Part shown: positions 5,279 to 18,929 of the stretch, in pieces
Layout of the letters: the number at the start of each line of letters is the position of its first letter
How positions within the stretch are numbered: the first letter of the stretch is position 1
Origin: Aurantiacibacter xanthus
Lineage (GTDB): Bacteria > Pseudomonadota > Alphaproteobacteria > Sphingomonadales > Sphingomonadaceae
Reading direction: 5' to 3'
DNA: 64,000 nt
Assembly (NCBI RefSeq): GCF_003584015.1
Contig: NZ_QXFM01000139.1
Coordinates: forward strand, 12,936 to 76,935
The notes under the pieces: generated by a model
Database searches by the model: none
Told to the model about the DNA's origin: nothing
The model's input: the letters and a program-made list of their open reading frames with translations, nothing else
Program-made: the position numbers and the translations under genes

Positions 5279-5292
5279 TGATAGCGCTACCA
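5279..5292 (-). promoter_or_regulatory. xyl-box operator upstream of the GH43-xylBA-galM operon
   Basis: TGATAGCGCTACCA as read on the plus strand, a 14-bp near-palindrome centred on GC. It matches four other sites in this window and resembles the xyl-box known from Xanthomonas xylan genes, a LacI-family operator. It lies 45 bp upstream of the GH43 ATG and downstream of the beta-helix gene stop. The most likely binder is the LacI protein encoded at 31332-32408. Confidence 0.75.
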
Positions 5293-11585: not shown

Positions 11586-12392
11586 CTAAAGGCCGGTTAA
11601 CCCCGCCGATTGCGAATCCACCCCGTCGGTTCCCCGTGCCGCCATCACCACATTGGTATCCTCAAGCGCCAGTTCGACCAGCACCCGCATCGCCGCGGCA
11701 GCGGCCTCGGCATCGCCGGCGGCCACGGCATCGAGCACGCGGGCATGGTCGGGGATCGGATCGCGCGGCAGCTTGTGCGTGCGCTGCTTGTAGGTCGTCG
11801 TGAGCGACACCGCCGAGCCGATCGACGCGCTGATCGCGATCAGGGCATCGTTCATCGTCGCCTGCAACAGGGCATCGTGAAACTCGCGGTCTGCCACGCG
11901 GCCCTCTTCGGTGGCCAGCGAATGGCGACGCATCAGGCCGAGCGCTTCGCGCATCTGGCGAAGCTGGGCAGAGGTGCGGCGCTGCGCGGCAAAGGCCGCT
12001 GCCGCCGGTTCGATCACCAGCCGCAGCTCGAACAGGCTGCGCACAAGGCGCGCATCGGGCTCACCGGCGAAGGCCCAGGCCAGCACTTCGGGGTCGAGCA
12101 GGTTCCAGCGCTCACGCGGGAGCACCTTGGTGCCCGTCTTCGGGCGGCTTTCGACCAGCCCCTTGGCGGCCAGCACCTGCATTGCCTCGCGATAGGCGCC
12201 GCGCGAAACCTCCAGTTCCTCCGCCGCGGCCACTTCGCCGGGCAAGACGTCTCCGGGGGCGTACTTTCCGGCCAGGATGGCGATGCCGACCTTGTTGGCA
12301 ACTGCACCGCGCAAACGCCTGCCGGGGCCGCGCACCCCGCGCCCTTCACGCGGGTCGCTATCGCCCGCGCGGTCCTGCTGCCCTTTGCCCAT
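11586..12392 (-). CDS. GntR-family transcriptional regulator, FadR subfamily (FCD domain)
   Basis: A DNA-binding regulator that probably senses a sugar acid or a sugar-derived metabolite. The N-terminal winged helix reads GDVLPGEVAAAEELEVSRGAYREAMQVLAAKGLVESRPKTG in pieces and is followed by an all-helical FCD effector domain with REFHDALL and the late DHARVLDAVAAGD histidine segment. The start at 12392 (MGKGQQ) is preferred because GGAGG lies ten bases upstream; an ATG at 12401 in the same frame sits too close to it. The gene follows the halogenase gene by 78 bp on the same strand. It is the best candidate for binding the box-2 motif TTGTAGGANTA found in four places in this locus. Confidence 0.9.
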   Translation of the reverse strand: MGKGQQDRAGDSDPREGRGVRGPGRRLRGAVANKVGIAILAGKYAPGDVLPGEVAAAEELEVSRGAYREAMQVLAAKGLVESRPKTGTKVLPRERWNLLDPEVLAWAFAGEPDARLVRSLFELRLVIEPAAAAFAAQRRTSAQLRQMREALGLMRRHSLATEEGRVADREFHDALLQATMNDALIAISASIGSAVSLTTTYKQRTHKLPRDPIPDHARVLDAVAAGDAEAAAAAMRVLVELALEDTNVVMAARGTDGVDSQSAGLTGL

Positions 12393-12470
12393 TACGTCCA
12401 TGCCTCCGCTCAAGGCCAAGGTGAGCATCAAGTCAACAGCCGGTCAACCCTGCCCGCAAGCCGGCAGACC

Positions 12471-14009
12471 TCAGACCGGCATCATCGCGTGCTCGCGAAT
12501 ACGGTCCAGCAGGTCGCGATGACGCGGCAGCCCCTGCATCAAGCGCTCGGTCTGCTGGCGATTTTCGCGCATCGCCCGGATCGCCTGATCGCGCTCGCGC
12601 TGCGCTTCTCCGGGCGGCAGATCGGTGTGCCAGCCCATGCCGTACAGCACATACTGGTAGCTCGCCGAGGGGAACACCTCCTCGGCCCGGTCGAACTCGT
12701 CGTGCAGCCAGGGCGGCTGATACTTCCACAGCTCCATCAGGCCCAGCAGCCGGTCGGGGATCGTTTCGGGTCGCAGATTGTCGCGCCAGAACTCGGTATC
12801 GGTGCGCTTGGTCAGCGCATAGTGAAGCTTGAGGAAATCGATGATCCGGCCCCAGCGATAGAGGGTCGTCTCGTCATAGCGGCGCGCGATCACGTCCATC
12901 ACCGCGCGGTTCGGCGGCATCTGTTCCGCGATCATCTTGGCCGAAAGCTCGATCAGCACGATCGCCGAAGCCTCCAGCGGCTCAAGAAAGCCCGCCGCGA
13001 GGCCGACTGCGACCACATTGCGCTTCCAGAACGTTTCGCGGTGGCCCGAGCGGATCGGAATCTTGCGCACGGTCAGACCATCGGCGGCCGGCCCGATATA
13101 GGCGCGCAGCTCGCGCTCGGCTTCGTCAGCGCTGATGTGGCTGCTGGAAAAGACATGGCCGACACCGCGCCGCGTCGGCAGCCCGATGTCCCAGATCCAG
13201 CCTGCCGACTGGGCGGTGGAAATGGTGTGGCTGGCGATGGGATCGTCCGGGTCGGCATAGGGCACCTGCACCGCCAGCGCGGTGTCGCAGAACAGCACCT
13301 CGTTGCAGCTGCGGAACGGAACATCCATCGCGCCTTCGATCAGCAGCGCCTTGAAGCCGGTGCAATCGACGAACAGGTCGCCGACGATGTCGCCCGCCTG
13401 TTGGGTGCGCACCATCGTTACATCGCCGCTCTCGTCGGTTACGACCTCGGTGACATCGGCAAGCACATGGCGCACGCCGAGCTTTTCGCAGCAATGCCGC
13501 TGCATGAACTGGGAGAATTTGCCCGCATCGAGATGATAGGCATAGTTCGCCAGGCTCTCGAATTCGGGGGTGGCGATGGTCTTGGGCGCAAGGCCCGCAT
13601 CGCAGATCCGGCCTTGCGGCGTGACCGCATCGCAGAAGGTGGTGGCGCGCTCTGTCTGCCAGTGCGGGACAAGGCTGAGCCGGGCAAAACCCTGCGGCAG
13701 CATGAGCGGGTGGTAGTAGCCCTCATCGGGCTCGCCGGTGGTCCAGCGATTGAACCGTGCGCCCTGCTTGAACGCGCCATCGCATTCGCGCAGGAAATCG
13801 GTTTCCGAGACGCCGATCCCGCGCAAGGTGTTGCGCAGAGTGGGCCAGGTTCCCTCGCCCACACCGATGATCGGCACATTGGGCGATTCGACCAGAGTGA
13901 CGGTGAAGCCGTGCGACATCCGGGCCTGATGGCGGGCCGCGATGACCCCTGCCGTCAGCCAGCCGGCCGTGCCTCCGCCAACGATGACAATATGCTCAAC
14001 CTGTCCCAT
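12471..14009 (-). CDS. Flavin-dependent tryptophan halogenase-family protein
   Basis: A 512-residue FAD-binding protein. It begins with the dinucleotide fold GGGTAGW at residues 11-17, keeps the lysine of the halogenase active site in AFKQGARFNRW (Lys81), and has WIWDIG near residue 270, a relaxed form of the halogenase WxWxIP motif. In characterised relatives FADH2 and oxygen produce hypohalous acid that halogenates tryptophan. In sphingomonads, Caulobacter and Alteromonas many such genes sit instead beside TonB receptors and SapC in carbohydrate loci, as here, and their substrate is unknown. It follows the TonB receptor gene on the same strand after a stem-loop at 14034-14060. No signal peptide is seen. 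Confidence 0.85.
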   Translation of the reverse strand: MGQVEHIVIVGGGTAGWLTAGVIAARHQARMSHGFTVTLVESPNVPIIGVGEGTWPTLRNTLRGIGVSETDFLRECDGAFKQGARFNRWTTGEPDEGYYHPLMLPQGFARLSLVPHWQTERATTFCDAVTPQGRICDAGLAPKTIATPEFESLANYAYHLDAGKFSQFMQRHCCEKLGVRHVLADVTEVVTDESGDVTMVRTQQAGDIVGDLFVDCTGFKALLIEGAMDVPFRSCNEVLFCDTALAVQVPYADPDDPIASHTISTAQSAGWIWDIGLPTRRGVGHVFSSSHISADEAERELRAYIGPAADGLTVRKIPIRSGHRETFWKRNVVAVGLAAGFLEPLEASAIVLIELSAKMIAEQMPPNRAVMDVIARRYDETTLYRWGRIIDFLKLHYALTKRTDTEFWRDNLRPETIPDRLLGLMELWKYQPPWLHDEFDRAEEVFPSASYQYVLYGMGWHTDLPPGEAQRERDQAIRAMRENRQQTERLMQGLPRHRDLLDRIREHAMMPV

Positions 14010-14033
14010 CTCGCCATTTCATCGTGAAAAGAG

Positions 14034-14060
14034 GCGGGGCGCAATCGAAATGCGCCCCGC
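14034..14060 (-). terminator. Stem-loop between TonB receptor and halogenase genes
   Basis: A perfect 10-bp inverted repeat (GCGGGGCGCA / TGCGCCCCGC) with a seven-base loop. Read on the minus strand it follows the TonB receptor stop and is followed by CTCTTTT, so it looks like an intrinsic terminator or attenuator. It would lower transcription of the halogenase relative to the receptor. Confidence 0.6.
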
Positions 14061-14075
14061 ACCAGTGGGAGACTA

Positions 14076-16988
14076 TCAGTAACGGAAGCGCACCCCCAGC
14101 GAGTAGCGCCGACCGTAGTCGAACACGTCGAGCAGCTGGTTCGAATACCGACCATGCGTGCTCTGCTGGTTACCGTTCACGTTCAGCACCTCGGCGAAGA
14201 CGCTGAAGGCATCGTTGATGTCGTAGCTCGAGGTCAGATCGATCTGGAAGCTCTCGTCAACGAAGGTCGGCTCGGAGCCGAAGGCGCCGGTGTTCTGGTT
14301 CTGACCGAACCCGGCCAGATACTCGTCACGCCAGTTGAGCGCGGCGCGGATCTGGAAACCGTTCTTGTCATAGAAGCCGACGAAGTTGGCCGAGTTGGCA
14401 AGCCCCGTCACCGCAAAGCCGGTCTGCGAGATATCGCTATCGTCGTAGGGCCGGTTGGTGTCGACGAAGGTGGCATTGGCCTGGAAGCCGAAGCCGCTGT
14501 CGCCGAACACGTGCTGCAGCGCGACTTCGACGCCCTTCACCGTCGCCTCGGGCCCGTTGATCTGCTGGGTGACCGAGAACACCGCCGGCTGGCCGGTGGT
14601 CGGGTCGATCACGCCGTTGATCCCCTGCCGCGTCACGCCGCCAACGATGAAGTTGGACACGTTCTTGAGGAAGGCGTTCACAGCAAAATAGGAGTTCCGC
14701 TGATAATACCATTCCACCGCCAGGTCGAAGTTGTCGGCCAGGTACGGCTTGAGCGCCGGGTTGCCGCCCGATGCGCTGAGCGCACCCACACGCTGCCCGG
14801 TGCCGACGTTGAGCTGCGGATAAAGCAGGCCAAGGCTCGGCCGGGTGATGGTGCGCGAGGCGCTGAAGCGGGCCTGCAACTCGGGAGTGATCTCCAGACG
14901 GGTATCGAGGCTCGGCAGCAGGTAGTTGTAGGTCGCCGTCCCGGTCAGCGGTTGCGGATCGGAGAGCACGATGGTCAGCAGGGTCGGATCGGCCGTGCTG
15001 GTCGTGATCGAGAGCGGCACCCGGCCGTTACCGTTGGCAGCAATCTTGGTGTGCTCGTTGCGCATACCCGCCGATACGTGGAACGGCATGCCGCCGATCT
15101 CGGTATCGAAGCTGGTCCGGAAGTACAGCGCCCAAGTCTGCTCCTGAATATCGCGAATCGATCCCGAATCCAGCGCCTCGGTGAACTGGCCGGTAAAGGC
15201 CGTGCCGCAACATTCGGTATTATACCCAGGGATAGTGGTGGTCTGCGGATTGCCGAGGCCGCTCAGATAGGCCTGATATGCCTCCGGGCTGAACAGGAAG
15301 ATCGACGGAGGCAGATTGCCTTCGAAGCCCGGAATAAAGTCGTTGAGACTGATCGACCCTTCGTAAAGCGAGCCCGGCAGCGGATTGATGCCGGAACCCT
15401 GACCCGACGGGCCACCATATCCGGCATAGGCCTGCCAGAAGTTATTGGCGAAGGTGTTGTAGTTCGCGAAGTTGAACTTGTCCTCATAGTACTGGCCGCC
15501 GAACTGGACCGTGAGGTTGTCCTGCTCCCACTTGCCGCCAGCACGCACCTGCCACAGTTCGTCGCGGTTGCGCTGGGTCTGGTTGACCGTCACGTGCGAG
15601 CCGATCAGGCTGGTATCGGCCCAGCTGCCCGCAACTCCGGCAGGGCCGAAGTTCGTGATCGACGGGAAGGCCCCGCTGCTGTCGCCAGTGACCTGGAAAC
15701 GGACCGGCGCACCGAGCGCGCCGCCATAGCCGATGTCGGCATTGAGGCTGCCAATCACACCGCCCGGATTGAGCTTGCTCAGCGCATAGGCACCGTCCAG
15801 TTCGAAGCTGAGGTTGTCGCTCGCTTCCAGCTCGATGTTGAGGCCGGTCTGGTTGGTTTCGAGGATCTGGCGGTTCAGCGCCGAGGTGAAGTCGGTCGGC
15901 GTGCCAGCCTGCACGAAGTCGACTACCGTGCCATTCTCGTCGAGCGTGACATCGCGCAGCGAACCCTGGTTGAACCACATGCCGAAGGCATAGTTGTTCG
16001 AGGTCACTTCCTGCCGCGAGTAGTTGTTGTCGAGCGTGACCATCGAGCCTTCGGACGGCTTCCACTGCAACGCCAGACGCGCATCGATGCGCTCGTCTTC
16101 CACGCGCTGCTGCTCGGCACCGTACTGCTGCGGGAACCAGCCCGGGATGCTCCGCAGGTCGGAAGCCGGGATCGGCGGCGTGTCCGGATCGCTGTCCTCG
16201 ACGCGCGGATTACAGCTCGTGGCCGTGCTGCCAGCGAGCTGACACGGCGCAAAGGTGTTGCCCGGCCAGCCGCTCACATAGACGCGGTTGGTGTCGGTCT
16301 TGCGCTGCGTATAGATGAAGTCGGCCAGCACGCCGAACGTGTCGCCGAAGGTGTTGCTGACCAGCAGGCCTGCAGTCGGCGCGATCTCGCCCGAACGGTC
16401 CTGAATCGACCCCGAAGCCGTCACCGCGGCGCGGAAGCCGGGACGGTCGAACGGATTGGGGAACTGAATGTCGACCGTCGCACCGATCGACGAGGACGAC
16501 AGCGAAACGTCAGGCGTCTTCATCACGGCGAGAGCGCCGATGAAGTCCACGCCCACGGTCGAGAAGTCGATCTGGCGGCCGCCCGTGGCCGTCGAAATGC
16601 GGCGGCCATCGTACAGCGTGGTGTTGAAGTCGCCGCCGAAGCCGCGAACGGTGATGCCGGTGGCTTCGCCGCGCGCACCGCTGCGCTGGATCGACACACC
16701 CGGCAGGCGCTGCAGCGAAGCAGCCACGTTCGAATCGGGGAACTTGCCGATGTCTTCCGAGGAAATCACGTCGACCACGCCCGACGCGTCGCGCTTTTCA
16801 TCAAGGTTGCGCTGAAGCGAGCCACGCAGGCCCGTCACGACGATGGTGTCGCTCGCTCCGTCACGGCTGTCCTGAGCAAGCGCGGGAGCCGCGCACATCA
16901 GGGCCAGGGCACTCGTCGCGCATCCAAGCACGATCTTGTTACCGCTACCATTTTTACGGAAACGAGGACCAATAGCGATCACTTTCAT
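14076..16988 (-). CDS. TonB-dependent outer-membrane receptor (Xanthomonas/Caulobacter type)
   Basis: A 970-residue outer-membrane transporter that should import xylo- or arabino-oligosaccharides using TonB energy. It has a signal peptide ending APALAQD, a plug domain starting TIVVTGLRGSLQRNLDEKR with DASGVVDVISSEDIGKFPDSN and LQRLPGVSIQRS, and a beta-barrel that ends in GVRFRY, the aromatic C terminus needed for barrel insertion. The layout matches the Xanthomonas/Caulobacter TonB subfamily, which is linked to plant carbohydrates. It is divergent from sapC and precedes the halogenase gene. The substrate is inferred only from the neighbours. No clear TonB box was pinned down. Confidence 0.93.
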   Translation of the reverse strand: MKVIAIGPRFRKNGSGNKIVLGCATSALALMCAAPALAQDSRDGASDTIVVTGLRGSLQRNLDEKRDASGVVDVISSEDIGKFPDSNVAASLQRLPGVSIQRSGARGEATGITVRGFGGDFNTTLYDGRRISTATGGRQIDFSTVGVDFIGALAVMKTPDVSLSSSSIGATVDIQFPNPFDRPGFRAAVTASGSIQDRSGEIAPTAGLLVSNTFGDTFGVLADFIYTQRKTDTNRVYVSGWPGNTFAPCQLAGSTATSCNPRVEDSDPDTPPIPASDLRSIPGWFPQQYGAEQQRVEDERIDARLALQWKPSEGSMVTLDNNYSRQEVTSNNYAFGMWFNQGSLRDVTLDENGTVVDFVQAGTPTDFTSALNRQILETNQTGLNIELEASDNLSFELDGAYALSKLNPGGVIGSLNADIGYGGALGAPVRFQVTGDSSGAFPSITNFGPAGVAGSWADTSLIGSHVTVNQTQRNRDELWQVRAGGKWEQDNLTVQFGGQYYEDKFNFANYNTFANNFWQAYAGYGGPSGQGSGINPLPGSLYEGSISLNDFIPGFEGNLPPSIFLFSPEAYQAYLSGLGNPQTTTIPGYNTECCGTAFTGQFTEALDSGSIRDIQEQTWALYFRTSFDTEIGGMPFHVSAGMRNEHTKIAANGNGRVPLSITTSTADPTLLTIVLSDPQPLTGTATYNYLLPSLDTRLEITPELQARFSASRTITRPSLGLLYPQLNVGTGQRVGALSASGGNPALKPYLADNFDLAVEWYYQRNSYFAVNAFLKNVSNFIVGGVTRQGINGVIDPTTGQPAVFSVTQQINGPEATVKGVEVALQHVFGDSGFGFQANATFVDTNRPYDDSDISQTGFAVTGLANSANFVGFYDKNGFQIRAALNWRDEYLAGFGQNQNTGAFGSEPTFVDESFQIDLTSSYDINDAFSVFAEVLNVNGNQQSTHGRYSNQLLDVFDYGRRYSLGVRFRY

Positions 16989-17241
16989 TTCAAATCATCC
17001 CCTCATAACGTCGCTCTACGGCGTTTCTGAAACCTGGCCAGCCCTGAGCTTATGCTCGCGGCCTATCGCATCTAGGTCGGATAACCATATAACCATTATT
17101 GGCAAATGCAACATTTGTCGGAGTTAATTTTCCTGCTACTTGTGCATTGCGCGACGAAAGTGCGATTTCCGTGCAACACTACCCCTCGCCGGACACGAAG
17201 AAAAGTCGGCGCACGGCAGGGTAAAGAGGAGAATTGGGACG
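16989..17241. promoter_or_regulatory. Divergent promoter region of TonB receptor and sapC
   Basis: A 253-bp region that must hold promoters for both directions. It contains two tandem copies of ATAACCAT at 17081-17096 in a locally AT-rich stretch (about 17080-17140). Neither the xyl-box nor the box-2 motif is present, so control of receptor uptake may differ from that of the enzymes. Promoter boxes could not be assigned with confidence. Confidence 0.5.
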
Positions 17242-17922
17242 GTGGGTGATCTGGTATTCCTGGAAGCACAAGGCCACGCTGGTCTGCGCGTAAACACGGC
17301 GAATGCATCTGGCCGACACTTCGTCCAGCTGGTGGTGAGCGAATTCCCCCAGGCCGCTTGCGAATACCCGATTCTGTTCACCAAGCACCCGGAGACCGGA
17401 GCCTTTTATCCGGGCGCGGTGATGGGGCTGGAAGCGGGCCGAAATCTCTATGCGCACGAGGGTGCGCTGCCCGGATACCGCCCCGCCGATCTGGTGCGGC
17501 AGGGCTTCTATGTGGTGGACGATCGCATCGCCATCGATCCCGAGGATCCCGTCTTCTCCGGCGGCGACCAGCCCCTGTTCGACGACCGCGGCGAGCCCAC
17601 TCACACGCTGCGCCTGATCCAGCAGGCCATGCAACAGCTCGCGCAGGGTTTGCAGGAGACCAGCGCCGTGCTCGACCGATTCGTCGAACACCGCCTGCTC
17701 GAACCGATCGATATTGCGCTCGACTTCGATGATGGCTCGCACCTGCGCCTCGACGGGCTCTATTCGGTCAGTCTCGATGCGCTGCACGCGCTCGACGATG
17801 ATGCGGCGCTGGCGCTGTTCCGGCACGGCGATCTGCAACTCGCCTACCTGCAGTCGGCCTCGGTCCGCCACATCAGGAACCTCGCGCGTCGGCGCAACGA
17901 GCAACTCTTCGCCGCCGCCTGA
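17242..17922 (+). CDS. SapC family protein
   Basis: A 226-residue protein of the SapC family, named after a Campylobacter S-layer associated gene; its molecular function is not established. The region ACEYPILFTKHPETGAFYPGAVMGLEAGRNLY and the preceding FVQLVVSEFPQAA match the family pattern. The GTG at 17242 was chosen because AGGAG lies ten bases upstream and because the family normally begins close to this residue; the ATG at 17140 would add a stretch that does not look coding. Its TGA overlaps the ATG of the JmjC-like gene (TGATG). In related genomes SapC sits with TonB receptors and halogenase-like genes, as in this window. Confidence 0.85.
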   Translation: MGDLVFLEAQGHAGLRVNTANASGRHFVQLVVSEFPQAACEYPILFTKHPETGAFYPGAVMGLEAGRNLYAHEGALPGYRPADLVRQGFYVVDDRIAIDPEDPVFSGGDQPLFDDRGEPTHTLRLIQQAMQQLAQGLQETSAVLDRFVEHRLLEPIDIALDFDDGSHLRLDGLYSVSLDALHALDDDAALALFRHGDLQLAYLQSASVRHIRNLARRRNEQLFAAA

Positions 17923-18929
17923 TGCCCGCTCCGGCGAGCCTTCCCGGCCGCGAATCGCTGGCCAGCCCGGAGGCCTTTCGGGCCGAGGTGATGCAGCAAT
18001 GCCAGCCGCGCCTGCTCCCCGGAGCGGTGCGCGACTGGCCGCTGCTAACCGAAGGCGGCGAAGGCGTGCTCGCCCAATTGCGCCGCCACGACAGCGGGCG
18101 CACCGCCGAGATGTTTGTCGGCCGTGCCGAGATCGGGCAGCGCTATTACTACGACGACGACCTCACGCAGTTCAATTTCGCCCGCGAGACGGTGACGCTC
18201 GCCCAGGCGCTCGACCGCATGGAGGCGACGGCCGGTGTGGAAGGGGCCGATACGCTCTATCTCGGCTCGCTCCCGGCGGAGAATCACTTCCCCGCAATGG
18301 TGAGCCAGGTGCGCACCCCATTTGTGCCGCCGACAGTGCTGCCGCGTTTCTGGATCGGCCACGGCTCGCAGGTGGCCTGCCATTATGACGCGCTGGACAA
18401 TGTCGCTTGCGTCGCCATGGGGCGGCGGCGCTTCACGCTTTACCCGCCCGAGGCGATTGCCGACCTCTATGTCGGGCCGATCGACTTCACGATGGCCGGG
18501 CAACCCGTTGGCCTTGCCGTCGATTCGCAGCGGGGCGATCCGCGCTATCCGCGCTTCGAGGCGATCCGCGACCGGGCGCTGGTGTTCGAGCTGGAACCGG
18601 GCGACGCGCTCTATGTGCCCAAGCTGTGGTGGCACAAGGTGGAAGCGCTCGATTCGCTGAACGTGCTGGTCAACTTCTGGTGGGACGGTTTTTCGCCAGC
18701 GGCAGACCCGCCCTATGCCGCGCTGCTGCTGTCGATGATTGCCATTGCCGAACGTCCGGCGGGCGAGCGCGCCGCGTGGAAGGCCTATTTCGACCATTAC
18801 GTGTTTCGCCCGGAGGGCCATCCGCTGGCATTCCTCCCCGAGGAGAAGCGCGGCCTGCTGGGATCTCTGGCCGAGGGCGCCTATCAACGCATCCGCATGG
18901 CGGCGATGCGGATGCTGCGCGGGCAGTAA
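17922..18929 (+). CDS. Cupin-like / JmjC-domain oxygenase-like protein
   Basis: A 335-residue protein with the fold of JmjC hydroxylases. Visible features are FWIGHGSQVACHYDALDNVACVAMGRRRF in pieces, where His and Asp of HYD would be the first two iron ligands, then the basic arm before TLYPP, the block ELEPGDALYVPKLWWHKVEAL with a distal histidine, and NVLVNFWWD. These suggest an Fe(II)/2-oxoglutarate dioxygenase, but the substrate is unknown. It is translationally coupled to sapC. Pairing of SapC, this cupin, a halogenase-like flavoprotein and a TonB receptor is a recurring but unexplained neighbourhood in carbohydrate-using proteobacteria. Confidence 0.8.
   Translation: MPAPASLPGRESLASPEAFRAEVMQQCQPRLLPGAVRDWPLLTEGGEGVLAQLRRHDSGRTAEMFVGRAEIGQRYYYDDDLTQFNFARETVTLAQALDRMEATAGVEGADTLYLGSLPAENHFPAMVSQVRTPFVPPTVLPRFWIGHGSQVACHYDALDNVACVAMGRRRFTLYPPEAIADLYVGPIDFTMAGQPVGLAVDSQRGDPRYPRFEAIRDRALVFELEPGDALYVPKLWWHKVEALDSLNVLVNFWWDGFSPAADPPYAALLLSMIAIAERPAGERAAWKAYFDHYVFRPEGHPLAFLPEEKRGLLGSLAEGAYQRIRMAAMRMLRGQ

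Follow-up and report, generated by a model that had tools for sequence, protein, structure and literature searches.

The window analysed here is a 64,000-nucleotide stretch of the genome of Aurantiacibacter xanthus (contig NZ_QXFM01000139.1, positions 12,936 to 76,935), and our subject is a group of four genes at 12471-18929 that encode a halogenase, a TonB-dependent receptor, a SapC protein and a cupin. An original prediction, made from the sequence, had named these four genes, and profile matches place all of them there. The flavin-dependent halogenase-like protein, which we call HAL_A (12471 to 14009, minus strand, 512 amino acids), scores 398.7 bits with PF04820 against a cut-off of 21, and its gene lies downstream of the receptor gene (14076 to 16988, minus strand, 970 amino acids; TIGR01782 555 bits against a cut-off of 310). 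Between the two stands a strong hairpin (14034 to 14060, minus strand) that ends in a T-rich tail and resembles a terminator or attenuator. On the plus strand SapC (about 17239 to 17919, start codon uncertain, about 227 amino acids; PF07277 170.7 bits against a cut-off of 28.9) is followed by a FIH/JmjC-like Cupin_8 protein (17922 to 18929, 335 amino acids; PF13621 (JmjC_2) 184.7 bits), a candidate 2-oxoglutarate (2OG) oxygenase. The four genes thus form two divergent pairs on either side of a divergent promoter region (16989 to 17238). This corrects one point of the described layout: the halogenase reads together with the receptor, SapC and the cupin diverge from that pair, and the two enzymes thus lie at the two ends of the unit. 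Judged by eye from the protein starts, an N-terminal signal sequence is present on the receptor and absent from HAL_A, SapC and the cupin.

The four-gene unit occurs far beyond chance. A search of genome contigs with the halogenase protein gave 274 relatives, the best of which were kept as 80 loci (close relatives, 68-92% identity); all four genes are present in 76 of the 80, in 73 of these within about 7 kb, and the remaining four loci (L008, L041, L055, L075) are cut by contig ends. The exact layout of the window is found in 71 loci, with an extra receptor in L071 and a turned receptor in L085, and in three loci of Steroidobacter and Peristeroidobacter (L069, L074, L082) the genes for receptor, halogenase, SapC and cupin follow one another on one strand over about 8.5 kb. 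In L069 two PF00756 esterase genes (12247-14546) stand between SapC and the cupin. A wider sample of 249 Pseudomonadota genomes, evenly drawn with a completeness filter of 90, holds SapC in 92 genomes, a halogenase (E 1e-30) in 39 and a strong Cupin_8 protein in 24, where strong means above 180 bits, a cut that we placed at a gap in the scores; the numbers of halogenases and receptors per genome are lower bounds, with at most six and three candidates scored. SapC is present in 38 of the 39 halogenase genomes against 54 of the 210 others, and a halogenase in 23 of the 24 strong-cupin genomes. Of the 43 strong Cupin_8 genes, 33 have a halogenase no more than 3 kb away, where random placement would give 0.43, and 27 have SapC at that distance or less; no halogenase lies so near to any of 12 weak Cupin_8 genes. 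These comparisons ignore common ancestry. That the combination recurs, as had been stated, is borne out by the 76 complete loci and by the proximity of cupin and halogenase.

Two counts speak for a looser association. Among 150 SapC matches listed, no more than 30 have a halogenase within 3 kb, and SapC stands alone, with no halogenase, cupin or receptor, in 40 of the 47 regions fetched for the window's SapC family. SapC thus also lives outside the cassette; beside the stand-alone copies (L087, L088 and 38 among L089-L132) no clear or steady functional partner was found among the frequent clusters, some of which match N-formylglutamate amidohydrolase, FAD (flavin adenine dinucleotide)-linked oxidase, response regulator and DEAD-box helicase, and others nothing.

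Two halogenase types occur in these cassettes, HAL_A (about 400 bits to the Pfam profile) and HAL_B (about 600 bits), divided by a bit-score cut of our own that misplaces L001/L086 and L148, which carry HAL_B motifs. The architectures in the fetched regions comprise receptor-HAL_A/SapC-cupin as in the window, receptor-HAL_A-SapC, receptor-SapC-cupin-HAL_B, receptor-HAL_A-SapC-cupin-HAL_B, and receptor-HAL_B with or without a cupin; genes in genome regions without annotation are frame matches, not curated genes. Several genomes hold at least six halogenase genes, and a receptor is present in 52 of 60 halogenase-anchored regions chosen from clusters. The parts of the cassette (receptor, SapC, cupin, HAL_A and HAL_B) correlate with one another in their pairwise distances (r 0.69-0.88, a value reached by 0 of 2000 permutations in each case), with r 0.84 for receptor and SapC over 50 loci. 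Among the 50 cassettes compared, 17 come from genomes with more than one; each of their parts has its closest counterpart in another genome, and for 7 of these 17 all parts point to one and the same partner cassette (for example L145-L171, L146-L173 and L166-L172). These correlations fit cassettes that were inherited as units, and would not by themselves show physical contact between the proteins. The genome G000 also holds a second receptor-halogenase pair (L086, contig C112, 5631-10547), divergent and of HAL_B type, with no SapC or cupin in the fetched stretch. Cassettes are also found on plasmids of marine, lake and plant-associated bacteria (L194-L197, L199, L200, L209): 11 annotated regions, taken from 92 records with a relative, hold beside the halogenase a receptor in 10 cases, SapC in 7 and a cupin as cassette member in 2. 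Sphingobium sp. RAC03 carries a window-type cassette. In PHROGs the window's halogenase matches phage family phrog_2928 at 308.8 bits, and phages thus carry relatives of this enzyme; SapC and the cupin gave only weak matches there, with E above 0.03.

The unit is tied to one receptor clade. The window's receptor has plug and barrel domains by profile, and its model aligns to PirA, BtuB and Fiu with Z of 37-38 and root-mean-square deviations of 2.6-3.6 over 519-572 residues. With a profile of this receptor, SapC-linked receptors score 313-1698 bits and receptors beside HAL_B alone score 258-397; the low SapC-linked scores are those of L158 (352), L188 (313) and the broken L124 (344). A clade profile was then built from 45 receptors, 44 of them SapC-linked and one from L198, which has a halogenase and no SapC; L158 and L188, SapC-linked and departing from the clade, were left out of that alignment. 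Above the clade cut-off of 850 bits stand 37 receptors in 24 of the 249 genomes, and all 24 carry both halogenase and SapC (Fisher p 1.5e-23 and 4.9e-12, in tests of genome co-occurrence that ignore shared ancestry), while 21 of the 24 carry a strong cupin.

The tie to the receptor is kept across different sugars. Around the cassette in the window lie genes for two GH43 (glycoside hydrolase family 43) enzymes, an arabinofuranosidase of GH51 type, GH95, GH9, GH3 and GH67 enzymes and a sugar porter, and because of these neighbours the xylan-locus label of the original prediction is right. Window-type loci in general carry GH3, GH43, GH51, Melibiase_2, GH9 and esterase genes. Receptor-HAL_A-SapC cassettes with no cupin beside them adjoin agarase and beta-galactosidase genes, GH31/GH95 genes, or galactose or galactonate genes, and operon-type cassettes have among the matches listed for 105 flanking frames GH3, GH1, GH20, GH36, GH42, GH67 and LacI regulators, with GH20 (hexosaminidase) in 2 of the 105 scanned proteins. 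The module therefore follows the receptor and not one sugar, with xylan, agar/galactan, GH31/GH95, beta-glucosidase and hexosaminidase neighbours. The same prediction had suggested that the enzymes act on lignin-derived phenolics such as ferulate attached to xylan. As a general role this is rejected, because the receptor-halogenase-SapC module also adjoins agarase, galactosidase and GH31/GH95 genes and because GH1, GH20, GH36 or GH42 genes are among the scanned neighbours of cassettes that do hold a cupin; for the xylan subset such chemistry is possible, and a cluster that matches PF00756 by its representative is present in 52 of 110 loci.

The halogenase appears to be an intact enzyme with an unusual substrate site. 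As had been claimed, the window's HAL_A has Lys81 and the FAD motif (GGGTAG), and Gly11/13/16 and Glu346 are present as well; all 101 distinct halogenases of the HAL_A group keep the three glycines (GxGxxG), Lys81 and Glu346; 81 of them are close to the window's, and two (L001, L148) carry HAL_B motifs. A loss of the catalytic lysine in most orthologues, which by the original prediction would have refuted it, was not seen. HAL_A has WIWDIGLP in place of WxWxIP, with Gly at the Pro position in 94 of 101; Pro stands there in 74 of 82 HAL_B and, within the HAL_A group, in L001 and L148, both HAL_B by motif. Likewise EPLEASA replaces EPLESTS, with Ala after Glu346 in 90 of 101. The lysine is kept in 75 of 82 HAL_B; the seven losses are all in low-scoring copies, of which five belong to tandem arrays that lack SapC and two (L165, L179) lie 4.5-4.8 kb from SapC with no receptor seen. 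The tandem halogenase arrays (L134, L141, L159, L170, L183) hold a degenerate copy without the catalytic lysine, and such copies are possibly non-catalytic partner subunits.

The long substrate loop of tryptophan halogenases (136-163 in 5lv9, 154-175 in 6nsd) is almost without counterpart in HAL_A, in which residues 143-151 span 135-164 of 5lv9 in the alignment, and the Tyr-Tyr pattern common to 5lv9 and 6nsd is found in 0 of 183 halogenases (0 of 101 in the HAL_A group, 0 of 82 HAL_B). From the comparison with 5lv9 and 6nsd, HAL_A would thus lack the loop that marks the free-tryptophan halogenases (RebH/PrnA/Th-Hal). As Lys81 and Glu346 are kept and the long loop is missing, the site is predicted to be halogenase-like and open, and halogenation and hydroxylation appear equally possible. 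The nearest structures to HAL_A are 2pyx, 9ltb and 9lu2, whereas HAL_B of the sister cassette L128 is nearest to 9luq, 6y1w (Xcc4156) and 6frl (BrvH). HAL_A shares with BrvH and Xcc4156 the superfamily and the short substrate loops, and differs from them in its nearest structures and in the WIWDIGLP and EPLEASA motifs. Published structures of the HAL_B type show an open site with short loops, and for BrvH and Xcc4156 a peptide has been suggested as substrate; the native substrate of the studied halogenases was unknown as of 2020 (PMC7336383). BrvH brominates free indole, and not tryptophan, in vitro (PMC5945002). TonB is not mentioned in the main texts of these two papers.

The HxD motif claimed for the cupin is confirmed as His154 and Asp156, with a distal His238, and these three residues together with Asn160 and Arg169 are kept in 107 of 107 cupins. 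The cupin resembles the JmjC protein hydroxylases FIH, JMJD5 and JMJD7, with sequence matches mostly over residues 140-260 or so, the part that holds HxD...H. It differs from FIH by Arg169, which presumably stands where FIH carries its 2OG-binding Lys; all 107 sequences have this Arg, which could serve in place of the Lys. The AlphaFold model of SapC is well folded (227 residues, predicted local distance difference test (pLDDT) score 96.8), and no relative of it was found: Foldseek against solved structures gave 0 matches at E of 0.001 or below, a second comparison 0 of 993 with Z of at least 2, a comparison with viral models 0 matches at E 0.001, and a profile search of the sequences of solved structures a best E of 0.29, a chimera. 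The absence of a structural match does not show a new fold. In 64 SapC sequences no Trp or Tyr is invariant or close to it, which weakens the proposal that aromatic residues of SapC are modified.

Some signals around the genes bear on their expression. Of 79 window-type loci, 47 have a perfect stem of at least 7 between the receptor and halogenase genes; of 462 coding segments, a control that differs in composition from intergenic DNA, 16 have one. The hairpin between the two genes suggests that the halogenase may be made in smaller amount than the receptor. In the receptor-SapC intergenics, TAGCGCTA, the core of a palindrome that we take to be of LacI type, is found in 43 of 75 related loci, and the window's own intergenic lacks it; the stricter RTAGCGCTAY occurs in 27 of 77 intergenics and nowhere in 221,839 bases of receptor coding sequence. 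A palindrome, GRTAGCGCTAYC, has five exact copies elsewhere in the window, at 5280, 19085, 24915, 29115 and 37369, near the 5' ends of genes for GH43, an alpha/beta-hydrolase, the sugar porter, GH67 and one further gene; with one mismatch the count is six, against 0.34 expected. These copies possibly mark a LacI/XylR-type regulon across the locus.

Since ferulate chemistry is not general and SapC has no invariant Trp or Tyr, the receptor is the most economical common substrate of the two enzymes. Our leading interpretation, which we put forward tentatively and with some doubt, is that the four genes are a cytoplasmic system for the maturation or modification of one clade of carbohydrate TonB receptors. 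The sugar, here xylose or xylan, would induce both divergent arms, with the receptor precursor made in large amount and the halogenase, by way of the hairpin, in a smaller, catalytic amount. SapC in the cytoplasm would act as an adaptor that binds the unfolded precursor, or enzyme and precursor together, and presents it; HAL_A with its open site would oxidise or halogenate an aromatic side chain of the precursor, and the FIH-like cupin would hydroxylate another receptor residue. The modified receptor would then pass through Sec and take its place in the outer membrane. In this scheme we infer the receptor as substrate, the modification before export, the role of SapC and the residue that is changed. 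The earlier suggestion that the receptor may be modified gains indirect support from the clade tie across sugars, the kept catalytic residues, the lack of signal peptides and the precedents that follow, while the modification itself is an extrapolation from these.

The first of these precedents is QhpG, a halogenase-related flavoprotein that introduces two hydroxyl groups into a Trp of QhpC; this happens in the cytoplasm, ahead of export to the periplasm, and the genes of enzyme and substrate share one operon, as they would here (PMC7876137). Unlike QhpG, HAL_A scores 32.8 bits with NF049967, below its cut-off of 240, and the cassette has no radical S-adenosylmethionine enzyme or protease. The second is the Caulobacter receptor CciT, the function of which specifically needs the intracellular 2OG oxygenase CciO, while three other receptors do not (PMC11870441); the CciT-CciO pair is widely syntenic, and the role of CciO is described as unknown (PMC12004943). 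Whether the amount of receptor falls without the oxygenase is a point on which these two papers disagree. Like CciT-CciO, Fiu-YbiX and PiuA-PiuC (PMC11870441, PMC12004943), the cassette has a TonB receptor gene near the gene of an intracellular 2OG oxygenase, here in 76 of 80 loci. In contrast, those three are iron receptors with one oxygenase and no halogenase or SapC reported in the available texts, and the cassette combines a carbohydrate receptor with a FIH-like Cupin_8 protein.

A candidate for the modified residue is Trp338 of the receptor. The window's receptor has both Trp338 and Arg947, a pair found in 96% of 54 SapC-linked receptors against 3% of 39 others, and Trp338 is the only Trp or Tyr column that reaches at least 90% in the 54 and is rare (8%) in the 39. 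This comparison took in only 20 window-type loci plus the window, dropped the broken or cut L008, L055 and L124, counted L158 and L188, and holds one gene twice among the 39 (L086 = L201). In the receptor model one strand runs from 315 to 338 and Arg947 is in the loop before the last strand, and by strand order both residues would be on the extracellular side. Trp338 is thus the best single candidate for a modified residue, a lead and not an established site. The proposal is rather improbable in its most specific form, in which Trp338 at the extracellular rim is the residue that the halogenase changes, by halogenation or hydroxylation, the cupin acts as hydroxylase on a second one and SapC delivers the precursor, all in the cytoplasm. 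Asp695, Gln480 and Pro408, kept in 93% of receptors with a cupin and 20% of those without (44 against 10 sequences), are weak leads only, since the ten cupin-less receptors are related and ancestry explains the pattern equally well.

Several observations weigh against modification of the receptor, and others against Trp338 in particular. No modified receptor has been observed, and CciT reaches the outer membrane without its oxygenase, for which the authors also consider siderophore chemistry (PMC11870441). Stacking of sugar on a Trp at the extracellular end of a strand would also explain why Trp338 is conserved. Five of the 37 clade receptors (L244-L248) keep Trp338 and Arg947 although neither halogenase nor SapC nor cupin lies in the 16.5-17 kb fetched, so that these residues mark the clade and not the presence of the enzymes. 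Receptor-halogenase-SapC cassettes are found elsewhere in four of the five genomes, and the only SapC of the fifth (G273) belongs to a HAL_A-SapC pair at a contig end. At position 338, Tyr stands in L253, which has SapC, cupin and HAL_B, and Phe in L188, which has SapC and HAL_A; in L158 the Trp is two residues earlier. As the receptors of L158 and L188 match the profile poorly (352 and 313 bits), SapC and HAL_A can serve another receptor type. Beyond the clade, 8 of the 60 halogenase-anchored regions have no receptor by our profile, many HAL_B genes adjoin a different receptor type without SapC or cupin (22 receptors), and 4 of the 11 plasmid regions have no SapC and 9 no cupin beside the halogenase. 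Trp338 as a proven halogenation site is rejected, given the clade receptors that keep it with no cassette nearby and the Tyr of L253.

Next in rank is the possibility, which we consider unlikely, that the enzymes modify or detoxify aromatics (ferulate, coumarate or other phenolics) on plant or algal glycans after these have been taken up. Window-type cassettes do lie in (arabino/glucurono)xylan loci, the PF00756 cluster and the two PF00756 proteins of L069 are in keeping with such cargo, as this family presumably includes feruloyl and acetylxylan esterases, and electron-rich phenols are good halogenase substrates. Against this, the trio of receptor, halogenase and SapC is also found beside agarase, alpha/beta-galactosidase and galactonate genes in bacteria from algae, mussels and lakes, where, as beside GH20, one would not expect phenolic esters; both the tie to one receptor clade and the presence of SapC are left unexplained. 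A small chance falls to a second alternative, in which the enzymes make a halogenated or hydroxylated aromatic that the cell retains as co-ligand or signal for the receptor. It can draw on the bromination of free indole by the HAL_B-type BrvH (PMC5945002) and on the discussion of CciO as possibly making a tethered siderophore (PMC11870441). The genomes with at least six halogenases and the receptor found in 52 of 60 regions suggest instead one enzyme set per receptor, and the flanking families among the matches listed are mostly carbohydrate genes, with no biosynthetic cluster.

That SapC itself is modified, as a carrier or peptide-like partner that the receptor only exports or binds, has a slim chance of being right. 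SapC adjoins the cupin in most cassettes that hold one, and a small substrate encoded with its enzymes would follow the logic of QhpC, but the well-folded model, the lack of a conserved Trp or Tyr and the stand-alone copies of the window's SapC family argue against it. Very improbable, lastly, is that halogenase and cupin are oxygen or redox sensors that regulate receptor synthesis without turnover: FAD and Fe/2OG proteins can sense oxygen and both enzymes are apparently cytoplasmic and encoded with the receptor, but Lys81 and Glu346 (in 101 of 101) and the metal site of the cupin (in 107 of 107) are retained without exception, and the lysine is lost in only 7 of 82 HAL_B, all low-scoring.

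No publication that describes the four-gene unit was found in the literature searched, to which subscription literature and Ismail et al. 2019 (cited in PMC7336383) did not belong; the available text of PMC11337851 does not describe it, and no halogenase, SapC or TonB neighbours were found in the available texts of PMC1790865, PMC4911050, PMC8269204 and PMC2996990. The substrate question for these halogenases, which are present in 39 of 249 genomes, many of them beside sugar receptors, is narrowed to one receptor clade. If true in its most specific form, with Trp338 as the modified residue, our interpretation would make the cassette, to our knowledge, the first system dedicated to modifying side chains of TonB receptors, and the orphan brominating halogenases would gain a physiological role. 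If the interpretation is true, nutrient uptake would acquire a further, post-translational level, as perhaps would the recognition of the receptor surface by phages or bacteriocins, and SapC, a confidently modelled protein for which no solved relative was found, would be given a role.

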